A stretch of 64,000 nt of DNA, from contig JAQSCO010000057.1 in assembly GCA_029945445.1 (NCBI GenBank), positions 356,985-420,984 of the forward strand. Direction: 5' to 3'. The notes beneath the pieces were generated by a model that was not told the origin of the DNA, did no database searches, and saw only the letters and a list, made by a program, of their open reading frames with translations. The translations under genes and the position numbers were made by a program. This stretch comes from Lacunisphaera sp. (GTDB taxonomy: Bacteria > Verrucomicrobiota > Verrucomicrobiia > Opitutales > Opitutaceae). Shown piece after piece: positions 10,511 through 63,940 of this stretch (position 1 is the stretch's first letter; each line of letters starts with the position of its first letter).

Positions 10511-10918
10511 ATGAGTAATTCCAAACTATACGTTGGAAATCTATCGTTCAACACCACCGAGGCCGAGCTCCGCTCGCACTTCGAGCAGTTCGGTGCCGTC
10601 ACCGACACCTATGTCGCCATGGACAAGATGACCGGCCGCCCCCGCGGTTTCGCGTTCGTCACCATGGGCACGGCCGATGAGGCCAAGATGGCCATCGAGA
10701 AGACCAATGGCGTCGAGCTCGGCGGTCGCGCCCTGCAGGTCAATGAGGCCCGTCCCAAGGAAGAGCGCCCGGGTGGCGGCTTCGGCGGCGGCGGCGGTCG
10801 CGGCGGCTTCGGCGGCGGCGGCGGCGGCCGTGGCGGTCGCGGCGGTTACGGTGGCGGCGGCGGCGGTGGCCGCGGCGGCTACGGTGGCGGCGGTGGTGGT
10901 GGCGGCGGTCGCTACTAA
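10511..10918 (+). CDS. RRM-domain glycine-rich RNA-binding protein
   Basis: A 135-residue protein with one RNA recognition motif (residues ~3-82: RNP2 LYVGNLSF at 5-12, RNP1 RGFAFVTM at about 46-53) and a 45-residue Gly/Arg/Tyr tail of GGYGG and RGG repeats. It matches the bacterial and cyanobacterial Rbp family, often cold-induced and RNA-chaperone-like. It is monocistronic, with a 230-base upstream region that is less G+C-rich near the start and contains a small GCAGGCA/TGCCTGC hairpin at 10295-10310. A clean terminator follows. A long leader could mean post-transcriptional or cold control, which is inference. Confidence 0.95.
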
Positions 10919-39583: not shown

Positions 39584-40816
39584 CGCGGCCCGCACCAACC
39601 GGTCGTCGCCGTCATTGGGCGCGGGCTTGAGGCCGAGCGCGGCGCAAAGCAGGTTGTAGAGGTGGATGTTTTCCACGTCGGGGATCTCCACACCGCGCCG
39701 GAAGGACGGGCCGCTGGCGAGGAAGAGCGCGCCCATGTTTGGGGTCGCCGGGTCCCAGCCGTGGTTGCCCTTGCTGTAGGTGAGCATGCGATTCGGCCAG
39801 CCGACTTTGCTCTCGATGTTCCAGTGGTCGTCGGCCAGCAACACGACGTCCGGGATGCGCGGATTGCCCCGGTAGTGATAGCGCGCGGGGCTCTCGTCGC
39901 GCAACCAGACGTGCAACTGTGGCGGCGCCTTGGTGCGGATCTGCTCGGCGAGCTCCGCGGCGGTGATGGTGCCGGGTTTCGGGCGCACGCCGCCGACCGG
40001 ACCGCTGGAGTCCACCTGCACCTCGGAGACTTTCATCAGGTCCTCGAGGAAGATGACGCGGTCGGGGCCTTGCTCCGACATGCCGTGGTCCGAGACTATC
40101 ACCAAGTCCGTGCGGTCGCGGAGGCCGAGCCGCGTCAGGCCGGCGAGCAAGCGGGCCACGTTGTGGTCCACCTCCTTCACGGCGGCGCCGGTCTCGGGGG
40201 CGACCGGGCCGTATTTGTGCCCGATGGTGTCGACGAGGTCAAAGTAGAGGGTGCAGAAGCGCGGGCGTTCGGCGGCGGGCCCCGCGAGCCAGCCCAGCAA
40301 CTCATCCACCCGCTGCGGGGCCGGCACCTTGTTGTCGAACGGCTTGTAGCGGCTCGGCCGCGCACCGTGGTTCTCCGTCTCGGAGCCGGGCCAGAAATAA
40401 CAGAAACTGCGCACGCCCTGCTTCTCCGCGGTGATCCAGACCGGCTCGCCGGCGGCCCACCAGCGCTCCTCGCGATTGCTCGCGGGCTTGCTCATGCCGA
40501 AGGTGTCGCCGCTGGCCGGGTCGTAGAACCAATTGCTGACGATGCCGTGGTGCGCGGGATAGAGGCCCGTGACGAGCGTGTAGTGGTTGGGAAAAGTCTT
40601 CGAGGGAAACGACGGCGTCAGGCGCGTCGCGTGCACGCCGCCGGCGGCGAGCGCCTTGAGGGTCGGCGCATCGTATTTTTGCAGGTAGTCCCAGCGGAAC
40701 CCGTCGATCGAGATCAGGACGAGCAGCTCGGCCCGCGTGGGCTGGACTGGCGTGGTGCACGACACCAGTGCGAAGGCGGTGGCGAGCAGCACCAGACTGG
40801 CGCGAAGTCGTTTCAT
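39572..40816 (-). CDS. alkaline-phosphatase-superfamily phosphodiesterase lipoprotein (ENPP type), copy 1
   Basis: A 414-residue nucleotide pyrophosphatase/phosphodiesterase-like enzyme. It has a lipobox (FALVSC, Cys20), the metal Asp38 in [12 protein letters not shown], the nucleophile Thr74 in PSKTFPNH, and metal ligands in [10 protein letters not shown] and GNHGWD. Such enzymes hydrolyse phosphodiester bonds of nucleotides or phospholipids; the PTFPSKT-like form is of the ENPP group. It is the downstream member of a tandem duplicated pair and its 3' end overlaps the convergent YyaL-like gene by 12 bases. Confidence 0.93.
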
Positions 40817-40862
40817 CAGGAAACAAGGCTTGGGCCCGTCGGCCCAAGCCTGCAACGCGCTT

Positions 40863-42119
40863 TTAGCGCGCCAACACCTCGCGCGCGAGGCGGTCGTCGC
40901 CGTCGTTGGGCGCCGGTTGCAGGCCGAGCACGCGGCAAAGCAGGTTGTAGAGATGGATATTGTCCACGTCGGCCAACTCGTGGCCGCGGCGGAACGCCGG
41001 GCCGCTGGCGAGGAAGAGCGCGCCCATGTTCGGGGTCGCCGGGTCCCAGCCGTGGTTGCCGCGGTTGTAGGAGTTGGCGAATTTCGTCCAGCCCAGCCGG
41101 CTCTCGATGTTCCAGTGGTCGTCGGCCACGAGCACGACGGGCGGAATGCGGGGATTGTCGCGGTAGTGGAACTGCGCCGGCACTTCCTCGCGGAGATAAA
41201 CCTTGAGCGCCGGCGGCGCCTTGGCGCGGATCGAGGCGGCGAGCTCGGCCGGCGTGACCGTGCCGGGTCTGGGGCGCACGCCGCCGTTTGGCCCGGTCGA
41301 CTCGACCTGCACTTGGGAAACGTTCATCAGGTCCTCGACAAAGATCACGCGGTCGGCGCTCTGTTCTGACATGCCGTGGTCCGACACGATGACGAGGTTG
41401 GTCTGGTCGCGCAGGCCGCGGCTGCTGAGGCCGGCCAGCAGGCGGGCCATGGCGTCGTCCGCCTCCTTGACCGCGGCCGCCGTCTCGGGGGAGTCGGGCC
41501 CGGCCCGGTGACCGACCACGTCGACCACCTCGAGGTAGAGCACGCCGAAGCGCGGGCGCTGGGCCGCCGGCAGGTCGAACCACGCGAGCAGTCCGTCCAC
41601 GCGCTGGTTGGAGGTCTGCTTGCCGTCGTAGGTCAGGTGAAAGCTCGGGCGCGTGCCGTGGATCTCGGCCTCGCTGCCCGGCCAGAAGTAGCAGGCGCTG
41701 CGCACGCCCTGTTTTTCCGCGGTGATCCAGATCGGTTCGCCCTGCTGCCACCAGCGCGGGTCGGCGTTATCGGCGGGTGAGTTCTTGTTGAAGGAGGCGT
41801 TGAACGCCGGATCGAAGAAATAATTCGAGACAATGCCGTGGTGCTCGGGCCGCAGGCCGGTGGCCAGGGTGAAATGGTTGGGGAAGGTCTTCGAGGGAAA
41901 CGAGGGCGTCAGGCGCTGCGCATGCACGCCGCCGGCCGCGAGGGCCTTGAGGGTCGGGGCGTCGTATTTCTGCAGGTAATCCCAGCGGAAGCCGTCGATC
42001 GAGACGAGGATCAGCGGTGCGAGCGGGCGGGCGGGCGGCGTCGTGCAGGACGAGACGGCCAAGAGGATCAGCAGCAGGTGAACGAAGGACCCGAATCGTT
42101 GCATGAAGGCGCATTTCAT
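40863..42119 (-). CDS. alkaline-phosphatase-superfamily phosphodiesterase lipoprotein (ENPP type), copy 2
   Basis: A 418-residue paralogue of the preceding enzyme, closely similar along the whole length (shared [65 protein letters not shown]). Lipobox ends at Cys25, metal Asp42, nucleophile Thr78. The start at MKCAFMQRFG has a GGGAGG sequence nine bases upstream, one of the few clear ribosome binding sites in the window. It lies 46 bases upstream of copy 1 and is probably cotranscribed with it. Confidence 0.93.
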   Translation of the reverse strand: MKCAFMQRFGSFVHLLLILLAVSSCTTPPARPLAPLILVSIDGFRWDYLQKYDAPTLKALAAGGVHAQRLTPSFPSKTFPNHFTLATGLRPEHHGIVSNYFFDPAFNASFNKNSPADNADPRWWQQGEPIWITAEKQGVRSACYFWPGSEAEIHGTRPSFHLTYDGKQTSNQRVDGLLAWFDLPAAQRPRFGVLYLEVVDVVGHRAGPDSPETAAAVKEADDAMARLLAGLSSRGLRDQTNLVIVSDHGMSEQSADRVIFVEDLMNVSQVQVESTGPNGGVRPRPGTVTPAELAASIRAKAPPALKVYLREEVPAQFHYRDNPRIPPVVLVADDHWNIESRLGWTKFANSYNRGNHGWDPATPNMGALFLASGPAFRRGHELADVDNIHLYNLLCRVLGLQPAPNDGDDRLAREVLAR

Positions 42120-60088: not shown

Positions 60089-61501
60089 TCACCCGCGCAG
60101 ATAGCGGATGACATCCTCCGCGCGATAGCTCTCGGCGCCGGCCGGGACCAAGCGCGCGAGATCGACGACCTCGTCGCCCGCGGTGACCAGCGGCTGCTCC
60201 GGCGCGCCGTCGCGTCGCTGGCCGAACCCCACGGTGGCGGCGAGCCCGTTGCAGAGGCACTTGCGGCCGGTGGTGTCGGCGGCGTTGCCGCCCTTGCGCA
60301 CGTAGGCCTCGACCGGCTCGGCCGGACACCGGTAGCCGACGCTGCCGTCTTCCTTGCGGTAAACCTCCCGCAGGCCGCCGAGGTCGCAGACGCGGGTGCG
60401 CGCCGCGTAGACCTCCGGCTCGGAAAGCGTGGCCCGCATCTGCAGCACCTTGAAGGGAAAACCCGTCGGCGACGCAGCCGGATCGGTGAACACCCGCGAC
60501 CGGCCGGCGCGGCTCGCGCGGATGGCCTCAAGCTTCAACTCCGGCAGGATGCCCGACTCCTCGCAGAACGCGAACGCCGTGCCGACCTGGATGCCGGTCG
60601 CCCCGACGCTGAGCGCCGCCGCGAGCTTTTCCGGCCGGGCATAGGAACCGGCGAGCCAGAAGGGGAGACCGAGTTCGCGGATTTTCGCGAAATCCGGCAC
60701 GTCGCGCGGACCGTAGACGGGCTCGCCAGCGGGGCTGAGCTGCAGGGGGCCGCGCGGCGGGGCGTTGTGTCCGCCGGCGACCTCGCCCTCGACCACGAAG
60801 CCGTCGACGCGGCCGTTGGATTTCTTTGCCAGCGTCAGCGCCAACGTGGCCGACGAGACGATCGCGAGGAACTTCGGGCGGGGCAGGCTCGGCGCCGCGT
60901 GGTGCCAGAGGGCCGCCGGGGCGAACTTCGTGTAGAATTCCTCGCCGGTCTGCGCGCCCGTGACGTCGATCCGGAGCTCGGCCGCGGCGCCGGCGGCGAA
61001 ATGGTCGAGCACGCCCGGGATCGAGCGCGGGATGCCCGCGCCCATCAGCACGTAGTCGACGTTGGCCAGCATGGCGCCGTAAAGGGAGGGCAGGGTCGCG
61101 AGCTGGATTTTTTCCATGAGGTTGATGCCGACAACGCCGGGGTGCGCCTCCTTCGCGAGGAAGACCTCGACGAAGTTCGCCGCCACCGTCAGCTCGGTCA
61201 GCGCCGGGCCGGGTTGCAGGGAGGTCATCGGCGTCAGCATGAACGGCAGGGCGGTCTTCGTCCGCTCCGGCAGGTAGTGGTCGGCGAGCACGCGCTCGGC
61301 CACGCCCGGGATGGGAAAGTGCGCGAGCGCGCGGCGCATGTCGCCGCCGGGGTCGCCCGCCTGCAGACGGCGCGCGAGGATGACCGCGAGCATGGTGCCG
61401 GAGACGACGCCGAGCTCGCCCAGCAGGGAAACGGCGCGGGCCAGCCGCCAGTTGGAGACGGCGACGCCCATGCCGCCTTGGATGATGGTGGGGAATTGCA
61501 T
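60089..61501 (-). CDS. nitronate monooxygenase / 2-nitropropane dioxygenase family flavoprotein
   Basis: A 470-residue FMN enzyme of the NMO/FabK/PfaD group. The N-terminal IIQGGMGVAVSNWRLARAV, the active-site EGEVAGGHNAPPRG and the phosphate-binding GIQVGTAFAFCEESG are family marks. It is longer than typical NMOs (~320-350) by a C-terminal extension with cysteines (CDLGGLREVY, YRCPAEP, KCLCNG), closer to PfaD-type length. Function could be enoyl reduction or nitronate oxidation. A palindromic-repeat-like stretch encodes AEPVEA near residue 395. Confidence 0.85.
   Translation of the reverse strand: MQFPTIIQGGMGVAVSNWRLARAVSLLGELGVVSGTMLAVILARRLQAGDPGGDMRRALAHFPIPGVAERVLADHYLPERTKTALPFMLTPMTSLQPGPALTELTVAANFVEVFLAKEAHPGVVGINLMEKIQLATLPSLYGAMLANVDYVLMGAGIPRSIPGVLDHFAAGAAAELRIDVTGAQTGEEFYTKFAPAALWHHAAPSLPRPKFLAIVSSATLALTLAKKSNGRVDGFVVEGEVAGGHNAPPRGPLQLSPAGEPVYGPRDVPDFAKIRELGLPFWLAGSYARPEKLAAALSVGATGIQVGTAFAFCEESGILPELKLEAIRASRAGRSRVFTDPAASPTGFPFKVLQMRATLSEPEVYAARTRVCDLGGLREVYRKEDGSVGYRCPAEPVEAYVRKGGNAADTTGRKCLCNGLAATVGFGQRRDGAPEQPLVTAGDEVVDLARLVPAGAESYRAEDVIRYLRG
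60305..60323. repeat. possible fourth copy of the in-frame palindrome
   Basis: GGCCTCGACCGGCTCGGCC shares 12 of the 14 core positions (GAGCC.GTCGA, reverse strand) with the 12936 repeat and encodes AEPVEA in the same sense. Coincidence is possible because the core is G+C-rich. Confidence 0.35.
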
Positions 61502-61612
61502 GAGAGGGGAGGCGGCGGGCGACGGGAGGCCGGCGTGCAAGGGGCAAGGTGGCAGGCCGCGCGGCGAGGAGGAAGAGCGATGCACGTCACCGCGCGCGGT
61601 ATTAGGCCCGCT

Positions 61613-61641
61613 GGCCGGTCGCACAAGATATGCGGCATGGG
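61613..61641. repeat. 29-bp direct repeat, copy 1
   Basis: Identical to copy 2 (61874-61902) except for one base. It contains the small hairpin GTCGCACAAGATATGCGGC (stem GCCGCA/TGCGGC in copy 2). It lies between the NMO gene and a minus-strand terminator. Confidence 0.75.
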
Positions 61642-61650
61642 TTCGGGCAG

Positions 61651-61684
61651 GAAAACGAAAAGGCCGCGGGGGAACCGCGGCCTT
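61651..61684 (-). terminator. intrinsic terminator, minus strand
   Basis: Stem GGCCGCGG / CCGCGGCC with loop GGGAA, extended by A-T pairs, followed on the minus strand by TTTTCGTTTT. It ends any transcript coming from the 671-residue protein gene or the remnants upstream. Confidence 0.85.
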
Positions 61685-61709
61685 GGAAGAAGCGAAGGGA
61701 AAGCCGGGC

Positions 61710-61808
61710 TCAGATGCCCGCGCTGTTCTCGTCGGGGATGCGCATGTGGTAGAAACTGCGATACACGAACACGAGCGCGACCCCAAAGAAGAAGCAGCCA
61801 ATACCGGC
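61710..61808 (-). pseudogene. orphan C-terminal membrane peptide (gene remnant)
   Basis: A 32-codon frame without a usable start begins immediately after an in-frame stop and reads as one membrane helix plus a tail (GCFFFGVALVFVYRSFYH, then MRIPDENSAGI). It ends 26 bases before the terminator. The composition is that of a real coding sequence, so I read it as the 3' end of a membrane-protein gene whose front part was lost. Which protein is unknown. Confidence 0.45.
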
Positions 61809-61813
61809 CTAGG

Positions 61814-61873
61814 CTAAGGTGGCGGGGCCAGCCGCTCGATCTGGATGTAGAGGGTGTAGGCGCCGTCCAGCTT
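61814..61873 (-). pseudogene. 3'-end fragment of a paralogue of the 671-residue exported protein
   Basis: Reads AKLDGAYTLYIQIERLAPPP and stop. The C-terminus of the intact gene 51 bases away reads AALEGEYYLHIQIERLPSPQ and stop, so 12 of 20 residues match, in the same strand and phase of ending. No upstream body exists. It is separated from the intact gene by copy 2 of the direct repeat. Confidence 0.65.
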
Positions 61874-61902
61874 GGCCGGCCGCACAAGATATGCGGCATG
61901 GG
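61874..61902. repeat. 29-bp direct repeat, copy 2
   Basis: Same as copy 1 (61613-61641) with one difference; here the internal hairpin GCCGCA-CAAGATA-TGCGGC is perfect. It marks the 5' boundary of the paralogue fragment. Confidence 0.75.
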
Positions 61903-61924: not shown

Positions 61925-63940
61925 TCATTGCGGCGAGGGGAGCCGTTCGATCTGGATGTGGAGGTAGTATTCGCCTTCGAGCGCCGCGTTCGTGTTGCCG
62001 CTGCTTTCATCAATGAAAGCCCAAGAATACACCACCGCAACCTTGCCGCCCAGCTTGGCCTCGAGGTTGGTGCGCGTCAGCACGAGGCCGCGCGGAGCCC
62101 AGACAAGATCGGGGACGTTCAGCACACCGCTGCCATGCTGATCCTCCAGGCCGATCGGCCGGTCAGCCTTCAGATCGAAACCCGGCCCGTAACGGCGCTT
62201 CCGATCGGGGTCGAGGAAGTCAAAGGAACCGGCAAGGGGGTCTATGTAACCTCCCGCCCATTTGTCCCGTTGCCATTCCCCGGAGAGAGTAACCCCGAGC
62301 TTGTCGGGTTTCACCCCTTGGCGCGCCGAATCGCGCAGCTGGGCCGAGCCGTTGGGCGACGACCACCAGCCGGTCCAGTTGCTCCACGGACCATCGTCGT
62401 CCTTGTTCCAAGAAAATAACACCGGCGCAATGACCAGCAGATCACTCGAGTCGCGCAGTTCTCCCTCCCAGACGAGCAGCGGGAAGCGGTCGCTGGCCGT
62501 GACCACTCCCGGTTTCGGCGTGGTGATCGTCGCGTCGGGCACGAAGTCGTTGGTCTGGATGCCGCCCTTGTCGCTCGCCGTGCCGGCCTGCAGGCGGTAG
62601 GGAAAACCATTGGTGTCGCCCATGACCTTAGTGCGGGCAAAGCTCCCGGAAGCCGGGGTCACGTTACTGCTATAGCGCGCCACTCTCACAGTGTAAGCGC
62701 CGGCGTAGACCTCGTCGCGTTTGCCGTCGAGTTGGAGCGGGTCGTCCTTCGACTCGTGCCAGCACTGCAGGCCCAGAAAGACAATGCGATAGCGGCCGCG
62801 GTCAGGCAGCACGTCGAAATTGACCGTGGCAACCTTGGGAGCGGGCACCCACTGGGGCGGGTCACCATAACCATACAATAAGGCGACCCGCACCGATTGG
62901 TTGCCGACGGGCACATCGGTGAGTTCGATCGAATTGGTGCTGACCCCCAACCCTTCTGCCGGCAAGGTCGGGCCGTAAACCTGGTAGATATTCGGAGGAT
63001 TGGTCTTCGGCTGCCAGTAGACCTCATAATAGCTCGTCTGTTTCCAGGTGAGCTTGTGCTTGCCCGGCCCGGACAGGACTGCCTGCAGGTCGGTTACAAC
63101 CAGGGGCTGGGGTGGATTGACATAGGTGTATTCCAGATTTCCCTCGCGGCCATCCGCATAATGCACGACCAGACGATAGAGAGTGTTGGGTTCCAGGAAG
63201 GCCCGGTCGGAAAATTTCTTCGCCGTGATATGGTTGGCCACCTGGGTCCCCCCGCTCGAATCCACCCGGTAGATGTCGCATGTCGCCGAACCGGCGTCGG
63301 ACCACGACAGATTGTGCTCGTAGGCGTTATCGGATTGGATCTTGAAGCCGGTCGGCGGCGGCCCCAGCGGTGCCGCGCCCAGCGCCTTGGACTTGGCCGC
63401 GGCGTTGCTCGCGGCGGCCTGCGCCGGAGTGGCGGTGGCGGGTGCAATGTCCGCGGCGGTGGGCCGGGTCGTCTTGAAGGTGAAGATGCGCACCCGCAGG
63501 TCGGAGCCGCCGCCTTTGGCGGCATAGAACCGGACCTCGGCCTCCTTAGCGGGCGTATGCCACTCGATCATCCGGAGCCGGTTCATATCGGAACCGCTGA
63601 CGGAGTCGGACACCTTCTTCCAACCGGCCGTCTGCAGTTGTTCAAGGTAGTAGGCCGCGACCGTATCCATCGCGGCCTGCGCGTGGTAGGTGGCGATTTC
63701 CGTGTCGTAGAGTCGGCCCGGATCCTGGCTGTAGGATTTGCGCACGAGGCCCGACGCCCGGGGAAAATCCGCCGGGTCCTTCGCGCCGGCGTCGGTCTCC
63801 GGGGGAGAGGCCTTGGGCGAAGCAACCGGACTGCCCTTGGTGGCCGGAGCCGCCGCCTTGGTGGCGGCAACGACCGTGGCCGGCGCCAGCAGCGCCAGAC
63901 CGAGGTTCAGCGTGGCCAGCCAGAAGGGGAGGCGTCTCAT
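61925..63940 (-). CDS. large exported protein of unknown function, possible fibronectin-III-like segment
   Basis: A 671-residue protein with a signal peptide (MRRLPFWLATLNLGLALLAPATVVA), a low-complexity Ala/Pro/Lys stretch (26-60), a segment (~65-150) that resembles DUF-type proteins with YYLEQLQTAGWKKVSDSV, a second linker, a fibronectin-III-like beta-segment (~195-280: PPTGFKIQSDNAYEHNLSWSDAGSATCDIYRVDSSGG; FLEPNTLYRLVVHYADG) and a ~380-residue C-terminal part with carbohydrate-like or adhesin-like beta-strands (WEGELRDSSDLLVIAPVLFSW; SWAFIDESSGNTNAALEGEY). No family named. The last strand block is duplicated as a fragment downstream. Confidence 0.8.
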   Translation of the reverse strand: MRRLPFWLATLNLGLALLAPATVVAATKAAAPATKGSPVASPKASPPETDAGAKDPADFPRASGLVRKSYSQDPGRLYDTEIATYHAQAAMDTVAAYYLEQLQTAGWKKVSDSVSGSDMNRLRMIEWHTPAKEAEVRFYAAKGGGSDLRVRIFTFKTTRPTAADIAPATATPAQAAASNAAAKSKALGAAPLGPPPTGFKIQSDNAYEHNLSWSDAGSATCDIYRVDSSGGTQVANHITAKKFSDRAFLEPNTLYRLVVHYADGREGNLEYTYVNPPQPLVVTDLQAVLSGPGKHKLTWKQTSYYEVYWQPKTNPPNIYQVYGPTLPAEGLGVSTNSIELTDVPVGNQSVRVALLYGYGDPPQWVPAPKVATVNFDVLPDRGRYRIVFLGLQCWHESKDDPLQLDGKRDEVYAGAYTVRVARYSSNVTPASGSFARTKVMGDTNGFPYRLQAGTASDKGGIQTNDFVPDATITTPKPGVVTASDRFPLLVWEGELRDSSDLLVIAPVLFSWNKDDDGPWSNWTGWWSSPNGSAQLRDSARQGVKPDKLGVTLSGEWQRDKWAGGYIDPLAGSFDFLDPDRKRRYGPGFDLKADRPIGLEDQHGSGVLNVPDLVWAPRGLVLTRTNLEAKLGGKVAVVYSWAFIDESSGNTNAALEGEYYLHIQIERLPSPQ

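Follow-up and report, generated by a model that had tools for sequence, protein, structure and literature searches.

Towards the end of a 64,000-nucleotide stretch of Lacunisphaera sp. DNA (the window), two short open frames lie side by side between the copies of a direct repeat, which raises the question of what event left them there. An interpretation made from the letters alone (the sequence-only reading) had called the place a rearrangement scar, and had attributed it to a deletion or gene-conversion event among what were once tandem copies of the gene next to it, which encodes a large exported protein. Here, we describe the source of the two fragments, the recurrence of the same arrangement in related genomes and the explanations that compete for it. 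The probable origin, in our view, is a DNA insertion at the 3' end of the membrane pyrophosphatase gene hppA, with the scar as its far junction.

Layout of the locus

The features of the locus are listed below. Coordinates refer to the window, with the exception of those given for L007, the next 11 kb of the contig; the window stops 60 bases past the start codon of the 671-residue gene.

60089-61501, minus strand: NMO-family gene with a nitronate monooxygenase domain (PF03060), on the far side of the scar; a homologue lies downstream of hppA in the relative G017
61612-61641, no strand: copy A of the 30-nt repeat, between the terminator of the displaced hppA end and the NMO gene
61656-61685, minus strand: terminator-like hairpin 3' of the displaced hppA end, recognised by its fold and by a 161-bp alignment to G017 (79.5%)
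61710-61808, minus strand: displaced hppA 3' end, 32 codons and a stop, no start; 61710-61781 is identical to the intact hppA end
61814-61876, minus strand: tail of a second 671-type gene, 20 codons and a stop; its start overlaps repeat copy B
61873-61902, no strand: copy B of the 30-nt repeat, 22 nt past the stop of the 671-residue gene on the minus strand
61925-63940, minus strand: gene of a 671-residue exported-type protein, putative cargo of the insertion; weak fn3 match, below the cut-off
L007 5002-5487, minus strand: lipoprotein-like gene, past the window end; weak LptM_cons match, below the cut-off
L007 5795-8272, minus strand: intact hppA, past the window end (PF03030, NF001950)

Read along the minus strand, the order is intact hppA, a terminator, the lipoprotein-like gene, the 671-residue gene, repeat copy B, the 20-codon tail of the second 671-type gene, the displaced hppA end, its terminator, repeat copy A and the NMO gene. 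The repeat brackets the terminator and the two remnants as had been described, with one mismatch and a length of 30 nt (61612-61641 and 61873-61902) rather than 29. The 20-codon frame reads AKLDGAYTLYIQIERLAPPP on the minus strand and stops at 61814-61816, its first codon falling within the overlap with the repeat. Five bases (61809-61813) separate it from the 32-codon frame, which ends with MRIPDENSAGI and a stop codon at 61710-61712 on the same strand; this frame does lack a start, its sole methionine being internal. The hairpin at about 61656-61685 is G+C-rich and followed by a run of T on the minus strand (z -2.9 over 61600-61730). An Rfam match to STnc380 at the terminator reached 28.6 bits against a cut-off of 60 and was taken as chance.

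A displaced hppA 3' end

The sequence-only reading had proposed identifying the source of the MRIPDENSAGI peptide in the genome, and that source was found on the same contig. A genome search with the DNA of the 32-codon frame matched the 3' end of the intact hppA, about 3.1 kb away, at an E-value of 3.9e-33 with 90% identity across 101 bp, more than chance would give. An identical tract of 72 bp takes in the stop codon, and the homology continues for about 20 nt further at lower conservation. The hppA homology of the window fragment stops about 45 nt before the SFY codons. With the scar DNA as query, the genome yielded a single other strong match, to the hppA 3' end, and a weak match to where the 671-residue gene ends. 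The 32-codon ‘membrane peptide’ is a displaced hppA 3' end, and with 32 codons only it is incapable of making the HppA enzyme. The term rearrangement scar stands.

The intact gene, two genes upstream of the fragment and just past the window edge, encodes an 825-residue membrane pyrophosphatase that scores 596.9 bits against PF03030 (cut-off 29.7) and 1335.6 bits against NCBIfam NF001950 (cut-off 826). A search of this genome for HppA at E<=1e-20 gave one match only. The target is arranged with a complete hppA on one side and a displaced 3' end on the other, on the same strand.

The displaced end lies in native-looking surroundings with a native-type terminator behind it. Fragment and terminator together match the native hppA end of G017 at 79.5% over 161 bp (77.9% over 113 nt from the conserved core on) and that of G009 at 77.2% over 101 nt. 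The 46 nt adjoining repeat copy A resemble the region upstream of NMO in G017 (76%), a genome that likewise has NMO downstream of hppA. At the attached end, the flank aligns with G017 and G011 in short pieces and with G019 in a long, weak match (64.5% over 155 nt).

Two further observations concern the sequence behind hppA. Between the stop codon of hppA and its terminator, a segment of the spacer (L007 5720-5789) partially matches six further genomic sites (28-69 bp, 87-100%) and is probably a small dispersed repeat. In G017, two adjacent zinc-dehydrogenase-type genes occupy the space between the hppA terminator and NMO (L046 3072-5091), and the content of this gap varies among relatives.

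Recurrence in related genomes

The hppA end was searched in 252 genomes of the family at a threshold of E<=0.05. It was matched in 128 of them, and three of these 128 have two ends: this genome, G010, which belongs to the same genus, and G060, which belongs to another. A profile scan of the sequence downstream of hppA began with 89 loci, from which three without a recognisable hppA end were dropped to leave 86 (84 distinct). The same three genomes stood out at 58.4, 57.6 and 38.1 bits, the next forward match reaching 10.7 and the best reverse-strand match 2.9. The scan covered 852,427 bases, at 68 bases to 14.3 kb per locus, a range in which some absences are uninformative. A search for the core sequence in 18 genomes gave 18 matches in 15 of them, and each match belonged to an hppA end or to one of the three displaced ends.

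As a control, the other ORFs of at least 150 codons at the 84 loci were searched for a same-strand, downstream, intergenic copy of their own tail. None of these 562 ORFs had one at E<1e-5 (one did at 7e-5) vs 3 of 84 for hppA, a comparison in which less downstream sequence was available for the other ORFs than for hppA, not all of these ORFs are real genes and, this locus having been pre-selected, the fairer count for hppA is 2 of 83.

The inserts between the hppA ends measure about 0.7 to 3 kb in the three genomes, the one described here being 3 kb. In G010, two adjacent genes encode a RelE-family protein (PF06296, 30.0 bits, cut-off 27) and an HTH_3 protein (33.6 bits, cut-off 23); by these domain matches the cargo is likely a type II toxin-antitoxin pair, and its comparison with NadS gave 55.4, below the cut-off of 60. 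The G060 insert holds two RlaP-family genes. Beyond the displaced end of G060, directly behind it, a PIN-domain gene follows a short ORF (L091 5174-5806), and the two are possibly a VapBC-like pair. Neither relative has traces of the lipoprotein-like gene or of the 671-residue gene beside its hppA end copies.

Counted back from the SFY codons, the displaced fragments start at 21 nt in G010, 33 nt in G060 and 45 nt in this genome, all within 24 nt of one another. By manual count, the frame that precedes each fragment has its stop codon 10 nt (G010), 14 nt (G060) and 11 nt (here) ahead of the start of the hppA homology. The target site has been used repeatedly, in three genomes, at nearly the same position of hppA and with different cargo. 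As the two relatives combine displaced hppA ends with unrelated cargo, what unites the cases is insertion at the hppA 3' end. The G010 contig stops about 130 bp past the displaced end, and the G060 fragment has decayed. Sites without an insert are represented by G009 and G017, which are not strains of the same species; their hppA is followed directly by a terminator and other genes, without a displaced end.

Origin of the two ends

In G010, the attached and displaced ends have 22 of 39 nt in common after the core and differ at 17. Among 15 genomes compared, the displaced end is nearest to G019 (36/39) and the attached end to G100, a member of another genus (33/39); the body of the G010 hppA is near both G100 (93/100) and the congeners (92/100). 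Judged by nearest match, the two ends appear to stem from different lineages, which argues against a plain duplication within that genome. The native end there may be the attached one, in which case the displaced end would be foreign.

The copies of the hppA end are divergent in G010 and G060 and identical over 72 nt here. This identity suggests a recent exchange or gene conversion and does not indicate its direction. Since the attached and displaced ends are the same in this genome, nothing marks either of them as foreign.

The second 671-type tail and the direct repeat

The 20-codon tail had been described as nearly matching the end of the neighbouring gene; a match exists, but with 42 of 60 nt in common the wording was generous. 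The tail points to a second 671-type gene at this place at some time, and a search for a second full 671-residue protein in this genome found a single match, the known one. The start of the tail matches a site inside the intact gene at 15 of 16 nt, which may reflect an internal deletion or chance.

Six-frame searches found relatives of the 671-residue protein beyond this genome only in G019, G024 (weak) and G047 (3/38 and 3/150 genomes, each count including this genome). None were found in phages, one partial match was found among plasmids (a Microvirga plasmid), and none in a scan of genome contigs that may omit the source genome. In G019, hppA is followed by a terminator, a lipoprotein-like gene, a shortened 671-type gene and then the end of the contig, so related cargo is present and the far junction is not visible. 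The G019 cargo is decaying (L042 3460-5038): its 671-type gene matches residues 1-328 with a gap, and its lipoprotein-like gene has in-frame stops.

No further copy of 20 nt of the direct repeat occurs in the 4.17-Mb genome with up to 3 mismatches allowed. In the 252 family genomes, all 19 other matches have 3 mismatches, and a reversed-pattern control gave 12. A mobile or dispersed element was rejected on these grounds, the repeat being unique to the locus. Twelve nucleotides of the repeat (CGCATATCTTGT) were also seen by eye upstream of NMO in G017, where the alignment did not pair them; that copy A is older than copy B is only a guess. The two repeat copies differ at 1 of 30 positions and the two 671-type tails agree at 42 of 60, so repeats and tails do not look equally old.

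Two other repeated regions were observed elsewhere in the window. At 39591-41382, a gene or domain has been duplicated in tandem: stretches of 190 and 300 nt recur 1291 nt apart, at 84% and 77%. At 10766-10917, glycine-rich GGC/GGT codon repeats proceed mostly in 9-nt steps.

Proposed insertion and its alternatives

What is observed lends good support to insertion at the hppA end: two hppA ends that share an identical tract, a native-type terminator, two further cases and clustered left boundaries. In the proposed course of events, the incoming DNA would have carried an hppA 3' end, a terminator and the cargo, here the lipoprotein-like gene and the gene of the 671-residue exported protein. A crossover with the resident hppA in the conserved stretch near its end, at about CTCGTGTTCGTGTATCGCAGYTTCTAC, would have kept hppA whole with one end from the incoming DNA, and stranded the other end beyond the cargo, as a start-less fragment that retains its own terminator. 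The arrival of the block as foreign DNA, the choice of the native end and the enzyme are the parts of this account that we infer. At least one additional event is required for the 30-nt repeat and the second 671-type tail. Our guess is a later local exchange in which most of an older 671-type gene would have been lost or replaced, leaving the 20-codon tail and the second copy of the 30 nt. This need for a further event counts against the insertion, as do the lack of a recombinase in the inserts, the possibly native attached end of G010, the identity of the two ends here, the contig end in G010, the decayed fragment in G060 and the weak alignment of the attached flank to G019.

A tandem duplication of the block of hppA, lipoprotein-like gene and 671-residue gene within the genome, with later deletions sparing only the ends of the second copies, would account for the fact that both fragments are 3' ends of neighbouring genes. 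It would also suit the 72 identical bp of the hppA copies and an 11-nt stretch common to the sequences after both terminators, within a 75% alignment of 53 nt. We nevertheless regard it as unlikely: the fragments run from the 671-type tail to the hppA end, an order that requires more than one deletion; the seemingly unequal ages of tails and repeats do not suit it; and the hppA end copies of G010 and G060 have no trace of these genes. The former array of 671-residue genes favoured by the sequence-only reading, with the membrane peptide as a bystander, is more doubtful still. The 20-codon tail does fit a second 671-type copy, and gene conversion is one route to the 72-bp tract. The array, however, leaves an hppA end with a native-type terminator unaccounted for, as well as the two cases with other cargo; the hppA end is not part of any array of exported-protein genes, and an event in such an array is at most a secondary step.

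We give very little weight to an assembly or binning artefact. The assembly is in 66 contigs, and in the fragmented genomes of G010 and G060 the junction is close to where a contig stops, but the junction described here lies inside a 613-kb contig and the displaced end differs from the intact one beyond the identical tract. It is hardly credible that the short frames are functional small genes: both are open and have stop codons, but they offer no start except the internal methionine. The conserved, intact small genes with start codons that would have refuted the sequence-only reading were not seen in the relatives examined, where the codons belong to hppA ends or to a second displaced end.

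How the inserted DNA may have moved

For the preferred reading, an insertion at the hppA 3' end, two routes are conceivable: a site-specific recombinase acting in trans, or a single RecA-type crossover with circular DNA. Pfam searches of the cargo proteins of the three inserts found no recombinase, nor did a strict motif scan downstream of hppA, run without a positive control; the motif is that of the tyrosine recombinases. A defence-library search with six proteins returned weak helix-turn-helix matches only, for one protein. The clustered boundaries lean towards a recombinase in trans, and the lack of a recombinase gene in the inserts towards a RecA-type crossover with a circle. The divergent ends of G010, together with the missing recombinase gene, would also be expected from a single homologous crossover with a circle that carries an hppA end.

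A tentative extension, which we would not yet back, is that the hppA 3' end serves in this family as an attachment site for very small cassettes without a recombinase, mobilised in trans by an enzyme whose recognition site would be about 27 nt of hppA. On the same tentative footing, the cargo of such cassettes would be addiction-type, nucleotidyltransferase or surface-protein genes. If this were true, repeated passage of cassettes would also explain the variable C-terminus of HppA after the conserved core.

Relation to known systems

The analysis turns a set of gene scraps into a mapped insertion junction in a conserved gene of energy metabolism, which two other genomes match almost to the nucleotide with different cargo. 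If a recombinase in trans is involved, this would be an integrase-free chromosomal entry route for toxin-antitoxin and other small modules, with a well-defined target sequence; if only homologous recombination is involved, it would be a clean example of short conserved gene ends seeding gene gain. A literature search found nothing on hppA in the role of an insertion site, and only an ADP-ribose pyrophosphatase gene as the target of streptococcal elements.

Integrative elements at the ends of protein-coding genes are described in PMC8409611, among them SGI1 at the trmE 3' end and the yicC-specific and dusA-specific islands, the last with a 21 bp imperfect direct repeat at their junctions. The hppA cases are like these elements in that the end of a conserved gene is hit, its frame is kept by sequence that the element supplies and a short imperfect direct repeat lies at the two junctions. 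They are unlike them in size and equipment: those islands carry an integrase and are far larger, whereas the hppA inserts, at about 0.7 to 3 kb, yielded no recombinase.

The second comparison is with the insertion of restriction-modification genes with long target duplication (Nobusato et al. 2000 and Furuta et al. 2010, as described in PMC3031569). The hppA case differs from what is described there in concerning one gene end in three genomes, and no restriction-modification genes were found among the insert cargo. It differs also in that the G010 copies disagree at 17 of 39 nt after the core, and so are not a simple duplication. What the two have in common are small modules of a selfish or accessory type, direct repeats of the target flanking them and the absence of an integrase.
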